64,000 bases of DNA. Origin: Oerskovia flava (GTDB lineage Bacteria > Actinomycetota > Actinomycetes > Actinomycetales > Cellulomonadaceae). The DNA is taken from NCBI RefSeq assembly GCF_026163685.1, contig NZ_JAOXSR010000003.1:1-64000 (forward strand), in the 5' to 3' direction. The position numbers were made by a program, and so were the translations under genes. The number at the start of each line of letters is the position of its first letter. The stretch's first letter is position 1. Positions 45,068 to 52,836 of the stretch are shown here, one piece after another. Under the pieces are notes generated by a model. It was given only the letters and a program-made list of their open reading frames with translations. It was not told the origin of the DNA and made no database searches.

Positions 45068-45781
45068 ATGAAGGCCGACCACTACGATCACTTCGCGGCC
45101 AGGTACGACGCCGAGAACGCGTCGAGCCTGCTCAACGCGTACTACGACCGGCCGGCCATGATCCGCCTCGCCGGCGACGTGCGCGGCCGACGCATCCTCG
45201 ACGCCGGGTGCGGCTCCGGGCCGCTGACAGCGGCGCTGCGCGACAGGGGCGCCGTCATGACCGGGTTCGACGGCAGTCCCGCGATGATCGAGCTCGCGAG
45301 CCGCAGGCTCGGCGACGACGTGCCGCTGCACGTCGCGGACCTCGCTCGGCCCCTGCCGTTCGCGGACGGTGCGTTCGACGACGTGGTCGCCTCGCTCGTG
45401 CTCCACTACCTCGAGGACTGGGTGGCGCCGTTGACGGAGCTCCGGCGGGTGCTCGCGCCTGGTGGTCGGCTCATCATCTCGGTCAACCACCCGACCGCCA
45501 GCGTGGTCAACTTCCCGGGCGAGGACTACTTCGCCACCCGGCAGTACTCCGAGGAGTTCCTGTTCGACGGCGCGCCGGGCGTGCTGACGATGTGGCACCG
45601 GCCGCTGCACGCGATGGTCGACGCATTCACGGCCGCGGGCTTCGGCATCGAGATCCTGAGCGAGCCGCGGCCCTCACCGCAGACCCCGCCCGAGCTGCTC
45701 CCACCACGCATCGTCAGTGGTGAGCGCTCGGCGTTCTTGTGCTTCATCTACTTCGTCCTCAGGAGCAGGGCCGACAACTGA
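45068..45781 (+). CDS. class I SAM-dependent methyltransferase
   Basis: 237 residues. Motif I ILDAGCGSGPLTAAL binds S-adenosylmethionine, GFDGSPAMIELA and VADLARPLPFADGAFDDVV follow, and LRRVLAPGGRLIISV is motif III. Many relatives methylate small molecules; none can be named here. Single gene between a terminator and the LytTR operon end. Confidence 0.88.
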   Translation: MKADHYDHFAARYDAENASSLLNAYYDRPAMIRLAGDVRGRRILDAGCGSGPLTAALRDRGAVMTGFDGSPAMIELASRRLGDDVPLHVADLARPLPFADGAFDDVVASLVLHYLEDWVAPLTELRRVLAPGGRLIISVNHPTASVVNFPGEDYFATRQYSEEFLFDGAPGVLTMWHRPLHAMVDAFTAAGFGIEILSEPRPSPQTPPELLPPRIVSGERSAFLCFIYFVLRSRADN

Positions 45782-45908: not shown

Positions 45909-46682
45909 CTACATGCCGAAGCGGCGGCGCAGCTCGCGCGCGTGCCGTCGCGAGACCTCGACGCGCGAGCGCTGCCGGTCGGCCATGACCACCACCAGCG
46001 AACCCTGGAAGTCCGGGACCAGCTCCCGCACGTGGTCGAGGTTCACCAGGTACGACCGGTGCGCCCTGAAGAAGTGCCCGCGCAGGCGTCGCTCCAGTTC
46101 GTTGAGGGACATGGTCACCAGCAGGCGCTCGTCGGCGAGCTTGAGGTAGGAGTACCCGCGAGCCGCGCTCGCGTACACGATCGAGGCGCCGTTCACGAGG
46201 ACCGTGCGCCCGTCCTTCTGCACCGGGATGCGGACCAGCGGCTCGACGTCACCGCGCGGCGCCGGGTCGGCGGACGACGGCGGAGCGGAGGCCGTGATCC
46301 CGGGCGCCGCGCCGTCGTCGGGGCCCAGCGCCCGGTCCAGCGCCCTGCGCAGCCGGTCCGCGTCGAAGGGCTTGAGGAGGTAGTCCGCCGCGGCGAGGTC
46401 GAAGGCATCGACCGCGTGGTCCGGGAAGGCGGTGGTGAAGATGACCTTCGGGGGGTCGGGCCGGTGCCGCAACGTCGCGGCGACCTCCAGCCCGGACCCA
46501 CCGGGCATCCGCACGTCCAGCAGCACCAGGTCGTAGTCGAGCGAGCTCAGCAGGAGCAGGGCCTCCTCGCCGTTGGTGGCCTCGCCCACGACCTGGACCT
46601 GCCCGACCTCCTCGAGCAGGTAGCGCAGCTCGGCCCGCGCAGGGGCCTCGTCGTCGACGATCAGGGCCTTGGGTCGCATCAT
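45909..46682 (-). CDS. LytTR-family response regulator
   Basis: 257 residues. Receiver domain about 1-120 with phosphoacceptor Asp56 (LVLLDVRMPGGSG) and acidic DDE at 10-12. LytTR DNA-binding domain about 155-257 (YSYLKLADERLLVTMSLNEL, FFRAHRSYLVNLDHV). LytTR domains bind pairs of 9-base direct repeats. Seven bases after the LytS-type kinase, so one operon. The 21-base-phased repeats at 50616-50667 are a likely target. Confidence 0.93.
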   Translation of the reverse strand: MMRPKALIVDDEAPARAELRYLLEEVGQVQVVGEATNGEEALLLLSSLDYDLVLLDVRMPGGSGLEVAATLRHRPDPPKVIFTTAFPDHAVDAFDLAAADYLLKPFDADRLRRALDRALGPDDGAAPGITASAPPSSADPAPRGDVEPLVRIPVQKDGRTVLVNGASIVYASAARGYSYLKLADERLLVTMSLNELERRLRGHFFRAHRSYLVNLDHVRELVPDFQGSLVVVMADRQRSRVEVSRRHARELRRRFGM

Positions 46683-46688
46683 CGGGCG

Positions 46689-48017
46689 TCACCTTAGCGG
46701 GATCTGCAGGTCCACGGTGGTCCCCTTCCCCGGGGTGGAGGCGACGTCGAACGAGTAGCGGTCGCCGAACAGCGAGTCGAGACGTTGGGAGATGTTCCAC
46801 AGGCCGACACCCGAGTGCTGCAGCCCGGCGGTGCCGGGACGTTCGCCGGCCAGCAGCCGGTCCAGCACCGTCGGGGCCATCCCGACGCCGTCGTCGGAGA
46901 CGCGGATCGACGTGGTCCGGGTCAGCGGGTCCACCCGGGCCCGCAGGTGGACCGTCCCGCCGGTGACCGAGTCCGCGATCCCGTGCTTGACCGCGTTCTC
47001 CACGATCGGTTGGATGACCAGCACCGGCACCCGCGCCGTCAGCACCTGCGGGTCGAGGTCGTAGCGCACGCGCAGCCGGTCGCCGAACCGCGCCTGCTCC
47101 AGCGAGACGTACGTCCGCACGAAGAAGTACTCCTGGCTGAACTCCGCGAAGTGGCCGTCCTGGCGCACCGCGTAGCGGAAGAAGTCGCTCAGCCGCAGCA
47201 GGAGCTGGCGCGACTCCTCGGGGTCGGTGCGCGACTTCGAGGCGATGGTGTTGAGGATGTTGAACAGGAAGTGCGGGTTGATCTGCGCGCGCAGCGCGTC
47301 GAGCTTCGCGTCCGAGGCGAGATGACGCTCCCGGTCCATCTCGGCCAGCTCGAGGTGCAGCGACAGCATGGACGCCATGTCGTCGACGAGCACGCGCGGT
47401 GCCGGCTCGTCGTGGACCCGGTAGACCTTGAGCGTACCGACCACCCTGTCGGCGACGGCCAGCGGAGCGACCACCGCGGTGCGCAGCGGGCAGTCTGGCT
47501 CCGGGCACCCGATCCCGTCGCGGCCGTGCACGACGACGGTGCGCTTCTTGCCGATGGCCAGGCGGGACACCCGGGTCTGCAGCGTCCCGCCCACGTGGTG
47601 GTGGTCCGCGCCCGGTCCGACGAACGCGAGCACCTGCTCGGTGTCCGTGATGGCGATGGCGTCCCCGCCGAGGAGCGGTCGGATGAGCTGGGCGGTCCTG
47701 CGCGCAGCGTCGAGGGTGAGGCCGTTGCGCAGCGGCATCGAGCGGCCCGCGGCGGCGATGGTGAGCCCGTCGCGCACTCCGCGCGGGTCTCGCGGTCGGC
47801 GCGCCGAAGATCGCGACCGCTTCCGTGTGGTGGCCCCGCTGCGCGGCCCACGCAGGGCGGACGGGTACCCGAGCACCACGACGGTGGTCACCACGAGCCC
47901 CGCCGCCAGGGTCGGCAGCACCCCGAGGGCGGGAGCGACCAGGACCTGTGTGATCAGGTAGACGGCTCCCCACGCCACGACGAGCACCCCGGCCAGCAGC
48001 CGGCTACCCCCGCGCAC
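46689..48017 (-). CDS. LytS-type sensor histidine kinase
   Basis: 442 residues. Two membrane helices at about 7-28 and 33-52, shorter than the five-helix LytS receptor. A GAF-like domain (about 100-225) includes a C-x4-C cluster (GCPEPDCPL). The kinase core has AQINPHFLFNILN with phospho-His at about 249 and an ATPase domain starting IVENAVKHG. Its start overlaps the symporter gene end by 14 bases. The cysteine pair suggests redox or metal input, but that is inference. Confidence 0.9.
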   Translation of the reverse strand: MRGGSRLLAGVLVVAWGAVYLITQVLVAPALGVLPTLAAGLVVTTVVVLGYPSALRGPRSGATTRKRSRSSARRPRDPRGVRDGLTIAAAGRSMPLRNGLTLDAARRTAQLIRPLLGGDAIAITDTEQVLAFVGPGADHHHVGGTLQTRVSRLAIGKKRTVVVHGRDGIGCPEPDCPLRTAVVAPLAVADRVVGTLKVYRVHDEPAPRVLVDDMASMLSLHLELAEMDRERHLASDAKLDALRAQINPHFLFNILNTIASKSRTDPEESRQLLLRLSDFFRYAVRQDGHFAEFSQEYFFVRTYVSLEQARFGDRLRVRYDLDPQVLTARVPVLVIQPIVENAVKHGIADSVTGGTVHLRARVDPLTRTTSIRVSDDGVGMAPTVLDRLLAGERPGTAGLQHSGVGLWNISQRLDSLFGDRYSFDVASTPGKGTTVDLQIPLR

Positions 48018-49704
48018 GTCGCTCCCTCCGATCCGCTCGTTGCCGCCGGTTCTCCGCCACGACCAGCCGAGCCAGGCGCTCCGCGTGCCGGTCCGCGGCG
48101 GTGCCGTGCATGATCAGCCAGGACTTCTCCACGTCCGGTGGCGGTGTGGTGCGCAGGGAGACGAACACGGCCACGGCGGCAGCCAGGGGAGCCGCCACGA
48201 GGGTGGGCGTCACCAGCGCCTCGCGCAGCAGCCCACCGGTGGCGAACAGTCCCGCCGTGAACATCGCCACGGCGACGCCCATGCCCGTGACCATGCCCGC
48301 CACGGCGCCCGCCGCCGTCGACCGCGGCCACCAGATCGCGAGCAGGAACACGGGGGTCAGCGCCGACCCGGCCACCGCGAAGGCCCACGTCACCATGGTC
48401 GCCACGATCGACGGTGTGGCCGCGGTGAAGGTCTCGGGCCGGAGCATCAGTCCCAGGCAGGCCGCCGCGCAGGCGGTGGCCAGCGTGGTGATCCGGCCGG
48501 CCAGGACGGCCTGGCGCTGGGTGGCGCGAGGGTTGATGTGCCGCTCGTAGACGTCGTGGCCCCAGGAGGCGGCGGCGGCGAGGAGCAGTCCGGCGATGGT
48601 CGACATCACCGCGATGAGGGCGCCGGCCGCGACCACGCCCAGCCCGGCGTCGCCGCCGTAGATGCGGCCGAGGACTGGCAGGGCGTGCTCCGGGACCCGC
48701 AGCACCCCGTCGACGGTGAGCTCCGCGAGCCATGGGTGGTCGTCGACGGCGGTCGGGACGATCTCGCGGGCCGCCGTGCCGAGCATGACCGCCAAGGAAT
48801 AGAAGACCCCGGCCAGGCACAGCACCCACACCGTGGTGGTGCGGGCGGCGCCACCGGTGGGAGACGTGAAGTAGCGGTTCATGACGTGCGGCAGCCCTGC
48901 GGTGCCCATCGCGAGCGTCGCGATGAGGGCGAACTGGCCGAGGCCGCCGTAGCGGGCACCGGGCTGGCCGAAGACGGCGGGGTCTCCCGGGTGCAGCGCG
49001 TTCTGCTCGGTGGCCAGCCCGCCGCCGTCCGCCGGGTTCTCCAGCGGGGCCGTCGACAGGTCGGCGACGGCCCCGCCGTAGTGGAAGCCCTCGCCGACGA
49101 CGGTCGCGGCGAGCCAGATGAGGGCGCAGAGCAGCAGCAGGAACTGCACCGCCTGCGTCCAGGTCGTGCCACGCATGCCGCCGAACGCGACGAGCCCGCT
49201 GACCACTGCGGTGGAGACGAGGATCCCGGTCGCGTACGGGGACAGGCCGAAGAGCCCGGAACCCACGAGCAGCTCCCACGTGATCCCCGAGCCCACGGCC
49301 TGCGGCACGAGATAGGAAAGGATGACGAGCTGGACCACGCCGACCGCGACGAGCCGGACCTTCTCCGACCCCAGCCGGCGGCCCAGGAAGTCCGGGATGG
49401 AGAACTCGCCGAACCGGCGCAGCGGGGCCGCGACGAAGAGCAGCACCGGGACGAACCCGGCGGCGAAGCCCACGGCGTACCAGGCGCCGTCGAGGCCGGT
49501 CGCATACACCGCGGCGGCGACGCCGAGGAACGACGCGGCTGAGAAGTAGTCCCCGCAGATCGCCCACGCGTTGGTCGCGACCCCGACCCGCTGGCCCGCC
49601 AGGTAGAAGTCGACGGTGGACGCGCCCCGCGGACGCATGACGACGGCGACCGCGGTCAGCAGGACCAGGACGCCGGCGAGCGTCAGAGCGCTGGGCCCGG
49701 TCAC
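48004..49704 (-). CDS. sodium/solute symporter (ActP-like, SSS family)
   Basis: 566 residues with about 13 membrane helices. STVDFYLAGQRVGVATNAWA and ICGDYFSAASFLGVAAAVYA are SSS signatures. MSTIAGLLLAAAASWGHDVYE is the conserved helix near the C terminus. ActP/MctC-type symporters carry acetate, pyruvate or propionate with sodium or protons. GTG start overlaps the DUF485 gene. The Arg-rich C-terminal tail is cytoplasmic. Confidence 0.9.
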   Translation of the reverse strand: MTGPSALTLAGVLVLLTAVAVVMRPRGASTVDFYLAGQRVGVATNAWAICGDYFSAASFLGVAAAVYATGLDGAWYAVGFAAGFVPVLLFVAAPLRRFGEFSIPDFLGRRLGSEKVRLVAVGVVQLVILSYLVPQAVGSGITWELLVGSGLFGLSPYATGILVSTAVVSGLVAFGGMRGTTWTQAVQFLLLLCALIWLAATVVGEGFHYGGAVADLSTAPLENPADGGGLATEQNALHPGDPAVFGQPGARYGGLGQFALIATLAMGTAGLPHVMNRYFTSPTGGAARTTTVWVLCLAGVFYSLAVMLGTAAREIVPTAVDDHPWLAELTVDGVLRVPEHALPVLGRIYGGDAGLGVVAAGALIAVMSTIAGLLLAAAASWGHDVYERHINPRATQRQAVLAGRITTLATACAAACLGLMLRPETFTAATPSIVATMVTWAFAVAGSALTPVFLLAIWWPRSTAAGAVAGMVTGMGVAVAMFTAGLFATGGLLREALVTPTLVAAPLAAAVAVFVSLRTTPPPDVEKSWLIMHGTAADRHAERLARLVVAENRRQRADRRERRARG

Positions 49705-50036
49705 GGGTGCTCATCTGTCGGGTCGGGGCCGATGGCGGGGCTGTCGTCGCGGGTGCCGTCCAGCATGCGGTGCTCGACCGCCGACGACAGGCGTGCCGCG
49801 GCGATCCCGAGGACGGCGAAGAACAGGTAGAGGCCGAAGGCGGCCACGAGGAACCCGGGGCTCATGCCGCCCGCGAGCCGTGCCTGCGACCACCAGTCCA
49901 GCGTGAGCGAGAGCACCGGGAAGGCCGCGACGGCGAGGAGGAAGACGACGAAGTAGCCGACCGCCACGCGCCGTAGCGTGCGGAAGGTGGCATCCACCTC
50001 CGCAGGGGTGTGCTGCGCGCCGACGTCGTCGTCCAT
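49701..50036 (-). CDS. DUF485-like small membrane protein, symporter partner
   Basis: 111 residues with two membrane helices (VAVGYFVVFLLAVAAFPVLS and PGFLVAAFGLYLFFAVLGIA). Position directly before an ActP-like gene with a GTGA overlap matches the YjcH/DUF485 partner of acetate symporters. First gene of the operon that ends with LytS and LytTR. Exact domain match needs a profile search. Confidence 0.75.
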   Translation of the reverse strand: MDDDVGAQHTPAEVDATFRTLRRVAVGYFVVFLLAVAAFPVLSLTLDWWSQARLAGGMSPGFLVAAFGLYLFFAVLGIAAARLSSAVEHRMLDGTRDDSPAIGPDPTDEHP

Positions 50037-50109: not shown

Positions 50110-50571
50110 TCATGACGGCGCGACGCCAGGCGTGCGCACCAGTCGGACGGCCGTGGCCAGCAGGATCACCGCTCCGCCGGTGACCATCACCAGCCCGATA
50201 CCCGGCATGGCCTGTCCCCAGGCATCGGTCGCGACGCTGATCTGGACGAGCCGGACGAGCTGCCAGCCGGCCACGAAGGCGACGCCGGCACCGGCCACGA
50301 TGCTGTGCGACACCGCGACCCAGCGCCGGGGCAGCAAGGCGCCGGCCACGGCGATGAACCCGCCGCACAGTGTCCACAACCCGGGCCCGGCCGTGCCGCT
50401 GATGCTCCCGACCGGCGTGATCACCCAGGGCAGGAGGCTCCCCACGATCACCACGAGCGCGCCGACCAGGAGGCCGATGCTGCCAGGGTGCAGGATCTGC
50501 TTGCGCTGCGTCCGCGTCCGACCCCCTGCGCGGAGCAGGTTGCCGAGGGATGCGCTCGTCGTCGAGGCCAT
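50110..50571 (-). CDS. hypothetical membrane protein, four helices
   Basis: 153 residues. A basic N terminus (GGRTRTQRKQ) is followed by four hydrophobic segments at about 33-55, 65-82, 90-110 and 125-145. No recognised domain. It is divergent from the DUF4212 gene across the LytTR-type repeat array, and 73 bases before the DUF485 gene on the same strand, so it could belong to the same regulon. Confidence 0.7.
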   Translation of the reverse strand: MASTTSASLGNLLRAGGRTRTQRKQILHPGSIGLLVGALVVIVGSLLPWVITPVGSISGTAGPGLWTLCGGFIAVAGALLPRRWVAVSHSIVAGAGVAFVAGWQLVRLVQISVATDAWGQAMPGIGLVMVTGGAVILLATAVRLVRTPGVAPS

Positions 50572-50615
50572 GGACCGACTGTAGGTGCGCAGGCCCTCGT
50601 CCGGACCCGCGGGTC

Positions 50616-50667
50616 GGCGAACGGTCCTGGCGGTTCAGCGAGCGGTCGATACCGATCGGCGAACGGT
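50616..50667. promoter_or_regulatory. 21-bp-phased direct repeats, predicted LytTR binding array
   Basis: On the minus strand ACCGTTCGCC, ACCGCTCGCT and ACCGTTCGCC begin exactly 21 bases apart (units at 50616-50625, 50637-50646 and 50658-50667). LytTR consensus is two 9-base direct repeats with about 12 bases between, so period and sequence both fit; ACCGTTCGC matches 8 of 9 consensus positions. Another copy is at 50755-50764 and an opposite-strand copy at 50704-50713. Lies between divergent genes. Confidence 0.65.
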
Positions 50668-50839
50668 CGTCGGGCGGTGGTGCACCGGTCGGGAGCCGTC
50701 CGGAGCCGTTCGCGGGACGGTCCCTGCCGTCGGGCGACCAGGTCTTGTGAGCAGTGCGAACGGTGCGATTCGCTCGGCCGGTACGGGGACGTTCCCCGGG
50801 CGACGGTGCCCGGGGTGAACGCGACGAAGGGAGCGTCCG

Positions 50840-51163
50840 ATGACCGACAGCACGCGAGAGGTCTCGCCAGATCCGGGGCCGCCACCGATCAACGGCTGGC
50901 GGCAGGAGTACTGGAAGAAGAACCTCCGGCTGATGGTGGTGCTGCTCAGCATCTGGTTCCTCGTCTCGTTCGTCTGCGGGATCCTGCTGATCGAGCAGCT
51001 GAACAACGTCGTCGTCCTCGGGTTCCCGCTGGGGCTGTGGTTCGCACAGCAGGGATCGATCTACACCTTCATCATCCTGATCCTGGTGTACACGCTGCGC
51101 ATGGACCGGCTCGATGACGAGTTCGGTGTCGCCGAGCGCGACGGGGAGGGGAACCGGCTGTGA
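50840..51163 (+). CDS. DUF4212 symporter small subunit
   Basis: 107 residues. Two membrane helices (LRLMVVLLSIWFLVSFVCGI and SIYTFIILILVYTL) with the conserved YWKKNLRL before the first and LGLWFAQQGS before the second, as in DUF4212. The TIGR03647-type small subunit always pairs with a VC_2705-type SSS protein, as here. GAAGGGAG upstream of the ATG. GTGA overlap with the next gene. Confidence 0.92.
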   Translation: MTDSTREVSPDPGPPPINGWRQEYWKKNLRLMVVLLSIWFLVSFVCGILLIEQLNNVVVLGFPLGLWFAQQGSIYTFIILILVYTLRMDRLDDEFGVAERDGEGNRL

Positions 51164-52836
51164 ACGAGATCCAGATGTGGTCGCTCGTCTTCGTGGGGTT
51201 GTCGTTCGTGGTCTACCTCACCATCGCGTGGCGCAGCCGGGTGAAGGAGACCAAGGGCTTCTACGTGGCCGGCCAGGGCATCCCGGCCGTCGCCAACGGT
51301 GCGGCCGTCGCAGCGGACTGGATGTCCGCGGCGTCGTTCATCTCCATGGCGGGCCTCATCGCCTTCATGGGGTCGGACGGCTCGGTCTACCTCATGGGCT
51401 GGACGGGTGGCTACGTGCTCCTGGCCCTGCTGCTCGCGCCCTACCTGCGCAAGTGGGGAAAGTTCACCGTCCCGGAGTTCGTCGGTGACCGCTACTCGGA
51501 GTACGTGCGGCTCATCGCGGCGGTCGCCGCGATCATCGTGTCCTTCACGTACGTGGTCGGCCAGATGCGGGGTGGCGGCATCGTGTTCAGCCGGTTCCTC
51601 AACCTGTCCATCGAGGGCGGGGTGGCCGTCGCCGCGGCGATCATCTTCCTGTACGCCGTGCTGGGCGGGATGAAGGGCATCACCTGGACCCAGGTGGCCC
51701 AGTACACGGTGATGATCGTCGCCTACCTCATCCCGGCGTGGACCATCGCGCAGAAGATGACGGGCTTCCCCGTGCCGCAGGTGACGTTCGGCCAGATCCT
51801 GGCCGAGCTCGACGCGCTGAGCGAGAAGTTCGGGCTCGCCCAGTACACCGAGGCGTTCGCCGCCCGGCCGCAGCTCGACGTCTTCCTGGTGACGTTGTCC
51901 CTGATGATCGGTACGGCCGGCCTGCCGCACGTCATCATCCGGTTCTACACGACCAAGTCCGTCCGTGGCGCACGGTTCTCCGCGTTCTGGGCACTGTTCT
52001 TCATCGGCCTGCTGTACACGACGGCACCGGCCGTGGGCGCGTTCACCAAGCTGAACCTCATGCAGTCGGTCGACGGCGTAGCGGTCGCCTCGTTGCCGGC
52101 CTGGGTGAACAACTGGGCCGCGACCGGTCTGGTGAGCGTCTCCGAGAACGCCTCGACCATCTCCACGTTGAGCAACGACCCGACGTCGGGCGCTGACCTC
52201 ATCGTGAACAACGACATCCTCGTGCTGGCCACGCCGGAGATCGCCGGCCTGCCGGCGCCGATCGTCGGCCTGGTGGCTGCGGGCGGGCTCGCAGCGGCGA
52301 TGTCGACGGCGGCCGGGCTGCTGCTCGTCATCTCGTCCTCCGTCTCGCACGACCTGTACTTCCGGGTCGTCAAGAAGGAGGCCTCGGAGTCGCAGCGCCT
52401 GCTCGTGGGCCGTGTCGCCATGGGGGCCGCGGTCGTCGTGGCGATCTACGGCGGCATCAACCCGCCGGCCTACGTCGCCCAGGTGGTCGCCTTCGCATTC
52501 GGGCTGGCAGCCTCGACGTTCTTCCCGATCCTCGTGCTGGGGATCTTCTGGAAGCGGGCCAACGCCATCGGTGCGGCGTCCGGCATGGTCACCGGTCTGG
52601 TGTTCACGGCGTCGTACATGATCTACACCCTCGACGTGTTCGGAACGTCGGCGAACGAGCACGTGCTCGGGATCTCGCCGGAGGGCATCGGGGCCATCGG
52701 CGCGCTGGTGAACATCATCGTCACGGTCGTGGTGTCGAAGCTCACGGCGCCACCGTCGGAGCACATCCAGGAGATGGTGGAGGGCATCCGCTACCCGGCT
52801 GCGCGGGTGCAGACGCCCGTTCACGAGACGGAGTAG
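51160..52836 (+). CDS. SSS-family symporter large subunit (VC_2705 type)
   Basis: 558 residues with about 13 helices. VYLTIAWRSRVKETKGFYVAG opens it, GAAVAADWMSAASFISMAGL is the SSS signature, and LLLVISSSVSHDLYFRVVKK is near the end. With the DUF4212 subunit it forms a putative sodium:carboxylate symporter, often annotated as acetate permease. GTG start coupled to the small subunit. It is not a close copy of the ActP-like protein nearby (different small subunit). Confidence 0.9.
   Translation: MNEIQMWSLVFVGLSFVVYLTIAWRSRVKETKGFYVAGQGIPAVANGAAVAADWMSAASFISMAGLIAFMGSDGSVYLMGWTGGYVLLALLLAPYLRKWGKFTVPEFVGDRYSEYVRLIAAVAAIIVSFTYVVGQMRGGGIVFSRFLNLSIEGGVAVAAAIIFLYAVLGGMKGITWTQVAQYTVMIVAYLIPAWTIAQKMTGFPVPQVTFGQILAELDALSEKFGLAQYTEAFAARPQLDVFLVTLSLMIGTAGLPHVIIRFYTTKSVRGARFSAFWALFFIGLLYTTAPAVGAFTKLNLMQSVDGVAVASLPAWVNNWAATGLVSVSENASTISTLSNDPTSGADLIVNNDILVLATPEIAGLPAPIVGLVAAGGLAAAMSTAAGLLLVISSSVSHDLYFRVVKKEASESQRLLVGRVAMGAAVVVAIYGGINPPAYVAQVVAFAFGLAASTFFPILVLGIFWKRANAIGAASGMVTGLVFTASYMIYTLDVFGTSANEHVLGISPEGIGAIGALVNIIVTVVVSKLTAPPSEHIQEMVEGIRYPAARVQTPVHETE

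Follow-up and report, generated by a model that had tools for sequence, protein, structure and literature searches.

The question raised by this locus is which regulator would bind a set of short direct repeats ahead of a DUF4212/SSS symporter operon in Oerskovia flava, and which of the two divergent operons on either side it would serve. An earlier interpretation (the sequence-only reading) had taken the repeats as LytTR-type sites of the DUF4212/SSS operon. By the window we mean the whole 64,000-nucleotide stretch analysed (contig NZ_JAOXSR010000003.1, positions 1 to 64,000), in which an intergenic region of 268 bp separates the two divergent operons. The genes concerned, assigned by family profiles, are:

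50110 to 50571, minus strand: first gene of the regulator operon, no family in Pfam or NCBIfam
49701 to 50036, minus strand: small protein before symporter A, best Pfam match DUF4212 (E 0.23)
48004 to 49704, minus strand: SSS symporter A, VC_2705/MctC/ActP-like, under the curated cut-offs
46689 to 48017, minus strand: LytS-type histidine kinase with a GAF domain
45909 to 46682, minus strand: LytTR response regulator, presumed binder of the array
50840 to 51163, plus strand: DUF4212 small symporter subunit (TIGR03647)
51160 to 52836, plus strand: SSS symporter B (TIGR03648, VC_2705 family)

The two symporters, previously called unrelated, are paralogues, with 29% identity over about 550 amino acids (E 3e-51). 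Each may have a small partner subunit. The protein encoded at 49701–50036 had been labelled DUF485; it matches neither DUF485 nor any other Pfam family at E 0.001, nor any NCBIfam family at E 0.01, and bears a faint likeness to DUF4212. At E 0.001 Pfam shows only His_kinase, HATPase_c and GAF in the kinase; BtsS of Escherichia coli is described as 7-transmembrane. The regulator scores 153.8 bits, below the BtsR equivalog cut-off of 246. The genome has two LytTR genes, one of them in the window, and one DUF4212 gene. The gap between the first gene and the small protein gene is 73 bp in the window, 15–30 bp in 12 of 34 loci and up to 266 bp elsewhere (starts estimated), and the first gene is presumably co-transcribed with the rest of the regulator operon. 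One terminator-like site is present, at 45722–45736, against 1.0 expected.

Three minus-strand copies of ACCG(T/C)TCGC occupy 50617–50667 with starts exactly 21 bases apart, just as first described. The sequence TCGGCGAACGGTC at 50614–50626 is identical to the copy at 50656–50668, and TCAGCGAGCGGTC at 50635–50647 is an 85% match, with start-to-start distances of 21 and 21; read on the minus strand the three copies are GACCGTTCGCCGA, GACCGCTCGCTGA and GACCGTTCGCCGA. A second set of sites, absent from the earlier account, lies on the plus strand. To simplify what follows we refer to the predicted half-sites as M1 to M3 and P1 to P3, numbered outwards from the centre:

50617 to 50625, minus strand: M3, predicted outer LytTR half-site adjoining the minus promoter, ACCGTTCGC
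50638 to 50646, minus strand: M2, predicted LytTR half-site, ACCGCTCGC
50659 to 50667, minus strand: M1, predicted inner LytTR half-site, ACCGTTCGC
50668 to 50683, no strand: centre between the arms, 16 bp
50684 to 50692, plus strand: P1, predicted inner LytTR half-site, ACCGGTCGG
50705 to 50713, plus strand: P2, predicted LytTR half-site, GCCGTTCGC
50726 to 50734, plus strand: P3, weak predicted outer LytTR half-site adjoining the plus promoter, GCCGTCGGG, score 3.1

The six sites are mirror-symmetric, spaced 21, 21, 25, 21 and 21 bp from start to start. Scored with a 12-base matrix, GACCG(C/T)TCGCGG, built from the intergenic regions described below, the minus sites reach 14.7, 12.9 and 14.7 and the plus sites lower values of 8.9, 10.8 and 3.1. 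A fourth copy of the nine-base core, GCGAACGGT, is indeed present as had been claimed, at 50756–50764 rather than at 50755. We rejected it as a member of the array and regard it as probably a chance occurrence or a minor site, because it is out of the 21-bp phase, lies within the predicted spacer of the plus promoter and is kept in only one (L012) of five aligned Isoptericola relatives.

Both arms run towards predicted promoter elements:

50601 to 50606, minus strand: minus promoter -35 position, GTCCGG, unlike the consensus and inferred from spacing, 10 bp from M3
50578 to 50583, minus strand: predicted minus promoter -10, TACAGT, 6 bp before the ATG at 50571
50745 to 50750, plus strand: likely plus promoter -35, TTGTGA, 10 bp past P3, also a Crp/GlxR-like half-site
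50769 to 50774, plus strand: possible plus promoter -10, TTCGCT, 18 bp past TTGTGA

A scan with the sigma-70 consensus found no promoter, and these elements are placed by position and comparison. In the window GTCCGG follows M3 after 10 bp, TACAGT comes 17 bp further on, and the ATG (50571) begins after another 6 bp. Among regions with a minus dimer score of at least 17 (9 of the 36 are left out), 25 of 27 have TAnnnT followed 5–8 bases on by an in-frame ATG, which suggests that the conserved first gene opening the regulator operon is read from a leaderless transcript. The distance from array to -10 varies by genus, being 33–36 bp, or 21 more, in most and 45 plus 21 in Promicromonospora. On the plus side a TTG stands 10–11 or 31–32 bp after the nine-mer in all 32 regions with a plus dimer score of at least 15 (four are left out), where 4.8% would be expected by chance for the six allowed positions, and a hexamer with a final T (88%) follows about 18 bp beyond the TTG hexamer. 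Taking 50571 and 50781 as +1, the outer pairs would be centred at about -60 on the minus and about -61 on the plus side.

Among named organisms, the closest relatives of the DUF4212 protein belong to Isoptericola. The LytTR gene keeps the same orientation and divergent order in 33 of 36 actinobacterial loci (L012–L047), the 33 coming from Isoptericola, Promicromonospora, Myceligenerans, Nesterenkonia, Sediminivirga, Phytoactinopolyspora, Pseudonocardiaceae and one Nitriliruptorales bin. In L019 and L027 (Nitriliruptoraceae bins) symporter A and LytS lie on the other side of symporter B, and the sequence of L032 stops before LytS. The window together with 35 of these loci (L027, which has no match to the first gene, is left out) gave 36 intergenic regions; the loci are related, and counts over them are therefore not independent events. 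Counting pairs of nine-mers identical at 8 or more positions, at spacings of 9 to 59, and leaving out a run of N in L044, we find 113 pairs at spacing 21, in 24 of the 36 regions, against 5.0 +/- 3.5 (maximum 12) in 60 shuffles; the second-highest spacing has 24 pairs. With matrices trained without the tested group, the best dimer of the whole locus falls within the intergenic region in 35 of 36 cases, L036 having a better one outside; all other matrix scores come from matrices trained on the same regions, the phase between the arms being outside the training. The nine-mer sites are 44–74% identical between families, P2 being among the best conserved at 74%, and the intervening stretches are near random at 31–39%. 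Repeats and 21-bp phasing are thus kept in relatives that have both genes, alongside the LytTR regulator gene, as expected of LytTR-type sites, and this comparative evidence also supports the proposal that the linked LytS/LytTR pair may control both symporters. The conservation check suggested with the earlier reading therefore came out in favour of its prediction.

The relation between the two arms is equally regular. When the best minus and the best plus dimer are picked independently in each region, the gap between them is 16–18, 38–40 or 59–60 bp (17 + 21n) in 36 of 36 regions, and the mean score plotted against gaps of 0 to 65 peaks at 16–18, 38–39 and 59–60 with every other gap at or below 4.2. 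Fitting three sites per arm (the 3+3 fit, gaps of 14–19 allowed) gives a gap of 16 in 10 regions, 17 in 16, 18 in 9 and 19 in one, and 35 of 36 regions have a TTG 9–12 bp past the third plus site; the exception, L039, fits the 3+3 frame poorly. Across the 36 regions the frame is more constant than the individual sites are. Only 13 regions have positive scores at all six; the inner plus site drops under -5 in 11 regions and the outer minus site under -10 in 9, 7 of these from Nesterenkonia, a genus in which the plus arm is stronger than the minus arm in 7 of 9 regions. The outer plus site scores 5.6 or less in 33 regions, yet over all 36 it has a consensus of its own, CGCCGTCgGGCg.

Searches elsewhere place the array in context. 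A genome search for the pair ACCGNTCGC-N12-ACCGNTCGC, as proposed earlier, finds it exactly twice in the 4.11 Mb, each time within the array, which is more than chance would give. Allowing up to two mismatches yields 21 forward and 21 reverse matches; the reversed control pattern yields 14 and 18. The four one-mismatch pairs (L003–L006) and two of the two-mismatch pairs (L007 and L008) all lie within long stop-to-stop frames, for which open reading frames were listed at L003 alone; we set these six aside as further targets, though such frames are weak evidence in GC-rich DNA. The strict pattern GACCGYTCG-N12-GACCGYTCG gives six matches in 5 of 81 family genomes, some of which may be the same as the named loci, and none for the reversed control; four of the six, in three genomes, adjoin the DUF4212 gene, and the other two are L108 and L109. 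DUF4212 is present in 14 of the 81, and since 11 of these 14 have no strict pair beside the gene the pattern is specific but insensitive. No score of 15 or above was found at the second LytTR gene of the genome (L010). Six distant actinobacterial loci (L101–L106, about 40% identity), with LytS/LytTR pairs beside an SSS symporter and the regulator genes first, gave no convincing array, scores of at least 15 occurring in L102, L104 and L105 (best 17.0) and none in L101, L103 and L106.

Because the 21-bp spacing and the gap between the arms are kept while the spacers are near random, we propose that the repeats form one divergent operator with a fixed 3+3 frame. It is likely, judging from sequence comparison, that this single mirror-symmetric LytTR operator serves both symporter operons and the regulator. 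The minus arm stands 10 bp before the predicted -35 position of the divergent operon that encodes LytS/LytTR, and for this reason probably mediates autoregulation. We infer that the linked LytTR protein binds here, that it activates rather than represses, and that transcription starts as described above. In this model, the LytS kinase would sense a signal and the LytTR regulator would become phosphorylated; the phosphorylated protein on the direct repeats would aid RNA polymerase at two promoters whose -35 elements lie 10 bp beyond the outer sites, leading leftward to more symporter A and more of the LytS/LytTR operon (positive autoregulation) and rightward to more DUF4212/SSS symporter B.

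The alternative that fares best is that the array serves autoregulation only, the plus arm being weak or a relic and the DUF4212/SSS operon being under other regulators, for instance a Crp/GlxR-like one. The plus sites of the window do score below its minus sites, and 20 of the 36 regions carry a Crp/GlxR-like palindrome, TGTGA-N6-TCACA, when up to one mismatch is allowed (mean of 0.12 after shuffling). However, no such site at this threshold is present in the window itself, and the identity of P2 between families, the constant spacing of the TTG in all 32 plus arms with a score of at least 15 and the stronger plus arm of most Nesterenkonia regions are all difficult to reconcile with a relic, making this explanation unlikely.

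The repeats might instead bind another direct-repeat regulator, the neighbouring LytTR gene being coincidental; further families, such as BldC, use direct repeats too. Several features fit LytTR, namely the repeat length, the 12-bp spacer, the core, a -35 position 10 bp away and a linked LytTR gene. Moreover, 34 of the 36 regions next to the LytS/LytTR block have a dimer score of 17 on one strand or both, as against 0 of 44 DUF4212 loci lacking it, which belong to other phyla with other base composition; we regard this alternative as very improbable. Those 44 loci (L048–L091) have a few weak LytTR-protein matches, none with LytS, and 43 pairs at 21 bp in 9 loci, 28 of them from L082 (a Caldilineaceae bin), where a G-rich, GGGGATT-like tandem repeat lies upstream of DUF4212. 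Least probable of all is the original assignment of the three minus-strand copies and the fourth core to the DUF4212/SSS operon. The array does lie in the intergenic region that the two operons share, 173 bp ahead of where DUF4212 starts, but its copies point away from that gene at a distance fitting the predicted leaderless promoter of the divergent regulator operon, DUF4212 has a plus arm of its own, and only one of five relatives retains the fourth copy. By the same token the statement that no comparable array precedes the ActP-like operon falls, as the repeats themselves precede it (first gene from 50571, minus strand).

Crp/GlxR-like palindromes are found at L014 and L015 (region positions 178–193), in Nesterenkonia (L016–L018, L020, L023, L025, L028, L029 and L032) and in others. 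Nesterenkonia often has one palindrome near each promoter, overlapping the plus-promoter -35; the window has only the half-site TTGTGA at 50745–50750. These sites suggest a second, carbon-status input that has been lost or weakened in the window's genome.

In published accounts, LytTR repeats are in most cases separated by 12 bp and strongly favour a position 10 bp ahead of the -35 (PMC6193735). The window has imperfect direct repeats of about 9 bp with spacers of about 12 bp, placed 10 bp from the -35 of both predicted promoters. The LytTR Regulatory Systems, with ACCGCTTAG-type repeats and members in Actinobacteria, have this geometry in common with the window, and also the autoregulation predicted for it; they pair LytTR with an inhibitory membrane protein, whereas the window has a kinase, a receiver domain and two divergent targets (PMC6193735). 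AgrA of Staphylococcus aureus acts at the divergent agr P2 and P3 promoters, with repeats centred near -60 and spacers of 18 and 20 bp. As there, the window has a LytTR protein, direct repeats near -60 and divergent promoters, predicted from sequence to have their own repeats each and one of them to transcribe the regulator, and the spacer of its plus promoter equals the 18 bp of the agr P2 promoter. Unlike agr it has up to three sites per arm, a centre of 16–18 bp (17 + 21n), transporter operons as both targets and a GC-rich actinobacterial core (PMC4227749). The neighbours are symporters rather than a quorum peptide system with a regulatory RNA output; the region is predicted to work like the agr region and is not a member of agr. 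BtsS/BtsR and YpdA/YpdB of E. coli resemble the predicted arrangement in combining LytS/LytTR, direct repeats and control of a transporter gene; they respond to a carboxylate, pyruvate (PMC5552118, PMC4847170). Here, unlike in those systems, the genes of the pair lie together with that of one symporter, the pair is predicted to control two SSS symporters and itself, the kinase has a GAF domain and the regulator falls under the BtsR cut-off. AlgR of Pseudomonas aeruginosa has the core CCGTTCGTC against CCGTTCGCC in the window, and its sites need not be direct repeats 12 bp apart (PMC4064291). Given the pyruvate response of the E. coli pairs and the resemblance of symporter A to MctC/ActP (below cut-offs), our guess is a monocarboxylate signal. 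In a literature search, with most subscription papers beyond reach, we found no comparable actinobacterial system and no description of LytTR dimers joined across a fixed centre between two arms.

More tentatively, the two arms might form a rigid single nucleoprotein switch, in which LytTR dimers touch across the fixed 17-bp centre and couple the two promoters, making them active either jointly or at a constant ratio, a possibility to which we give somewhat less than even weight. If it is true, the weak but conserved P3 would give the second symporter a higher threshold than the regulator operon has. The locus is also a natural example of LytTR arms whose spacing seems to be under selection. 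For an actinobacterial LytS/LytTR pair, the analysis supplies an operator sequence, promoters open to testing and two predicted target operons, in several families, and the signal can be tested jointly with the substrates of the two symporters. One sensor, most likely the LytS/LytTR pair next door, could switch on both transporters and itself.
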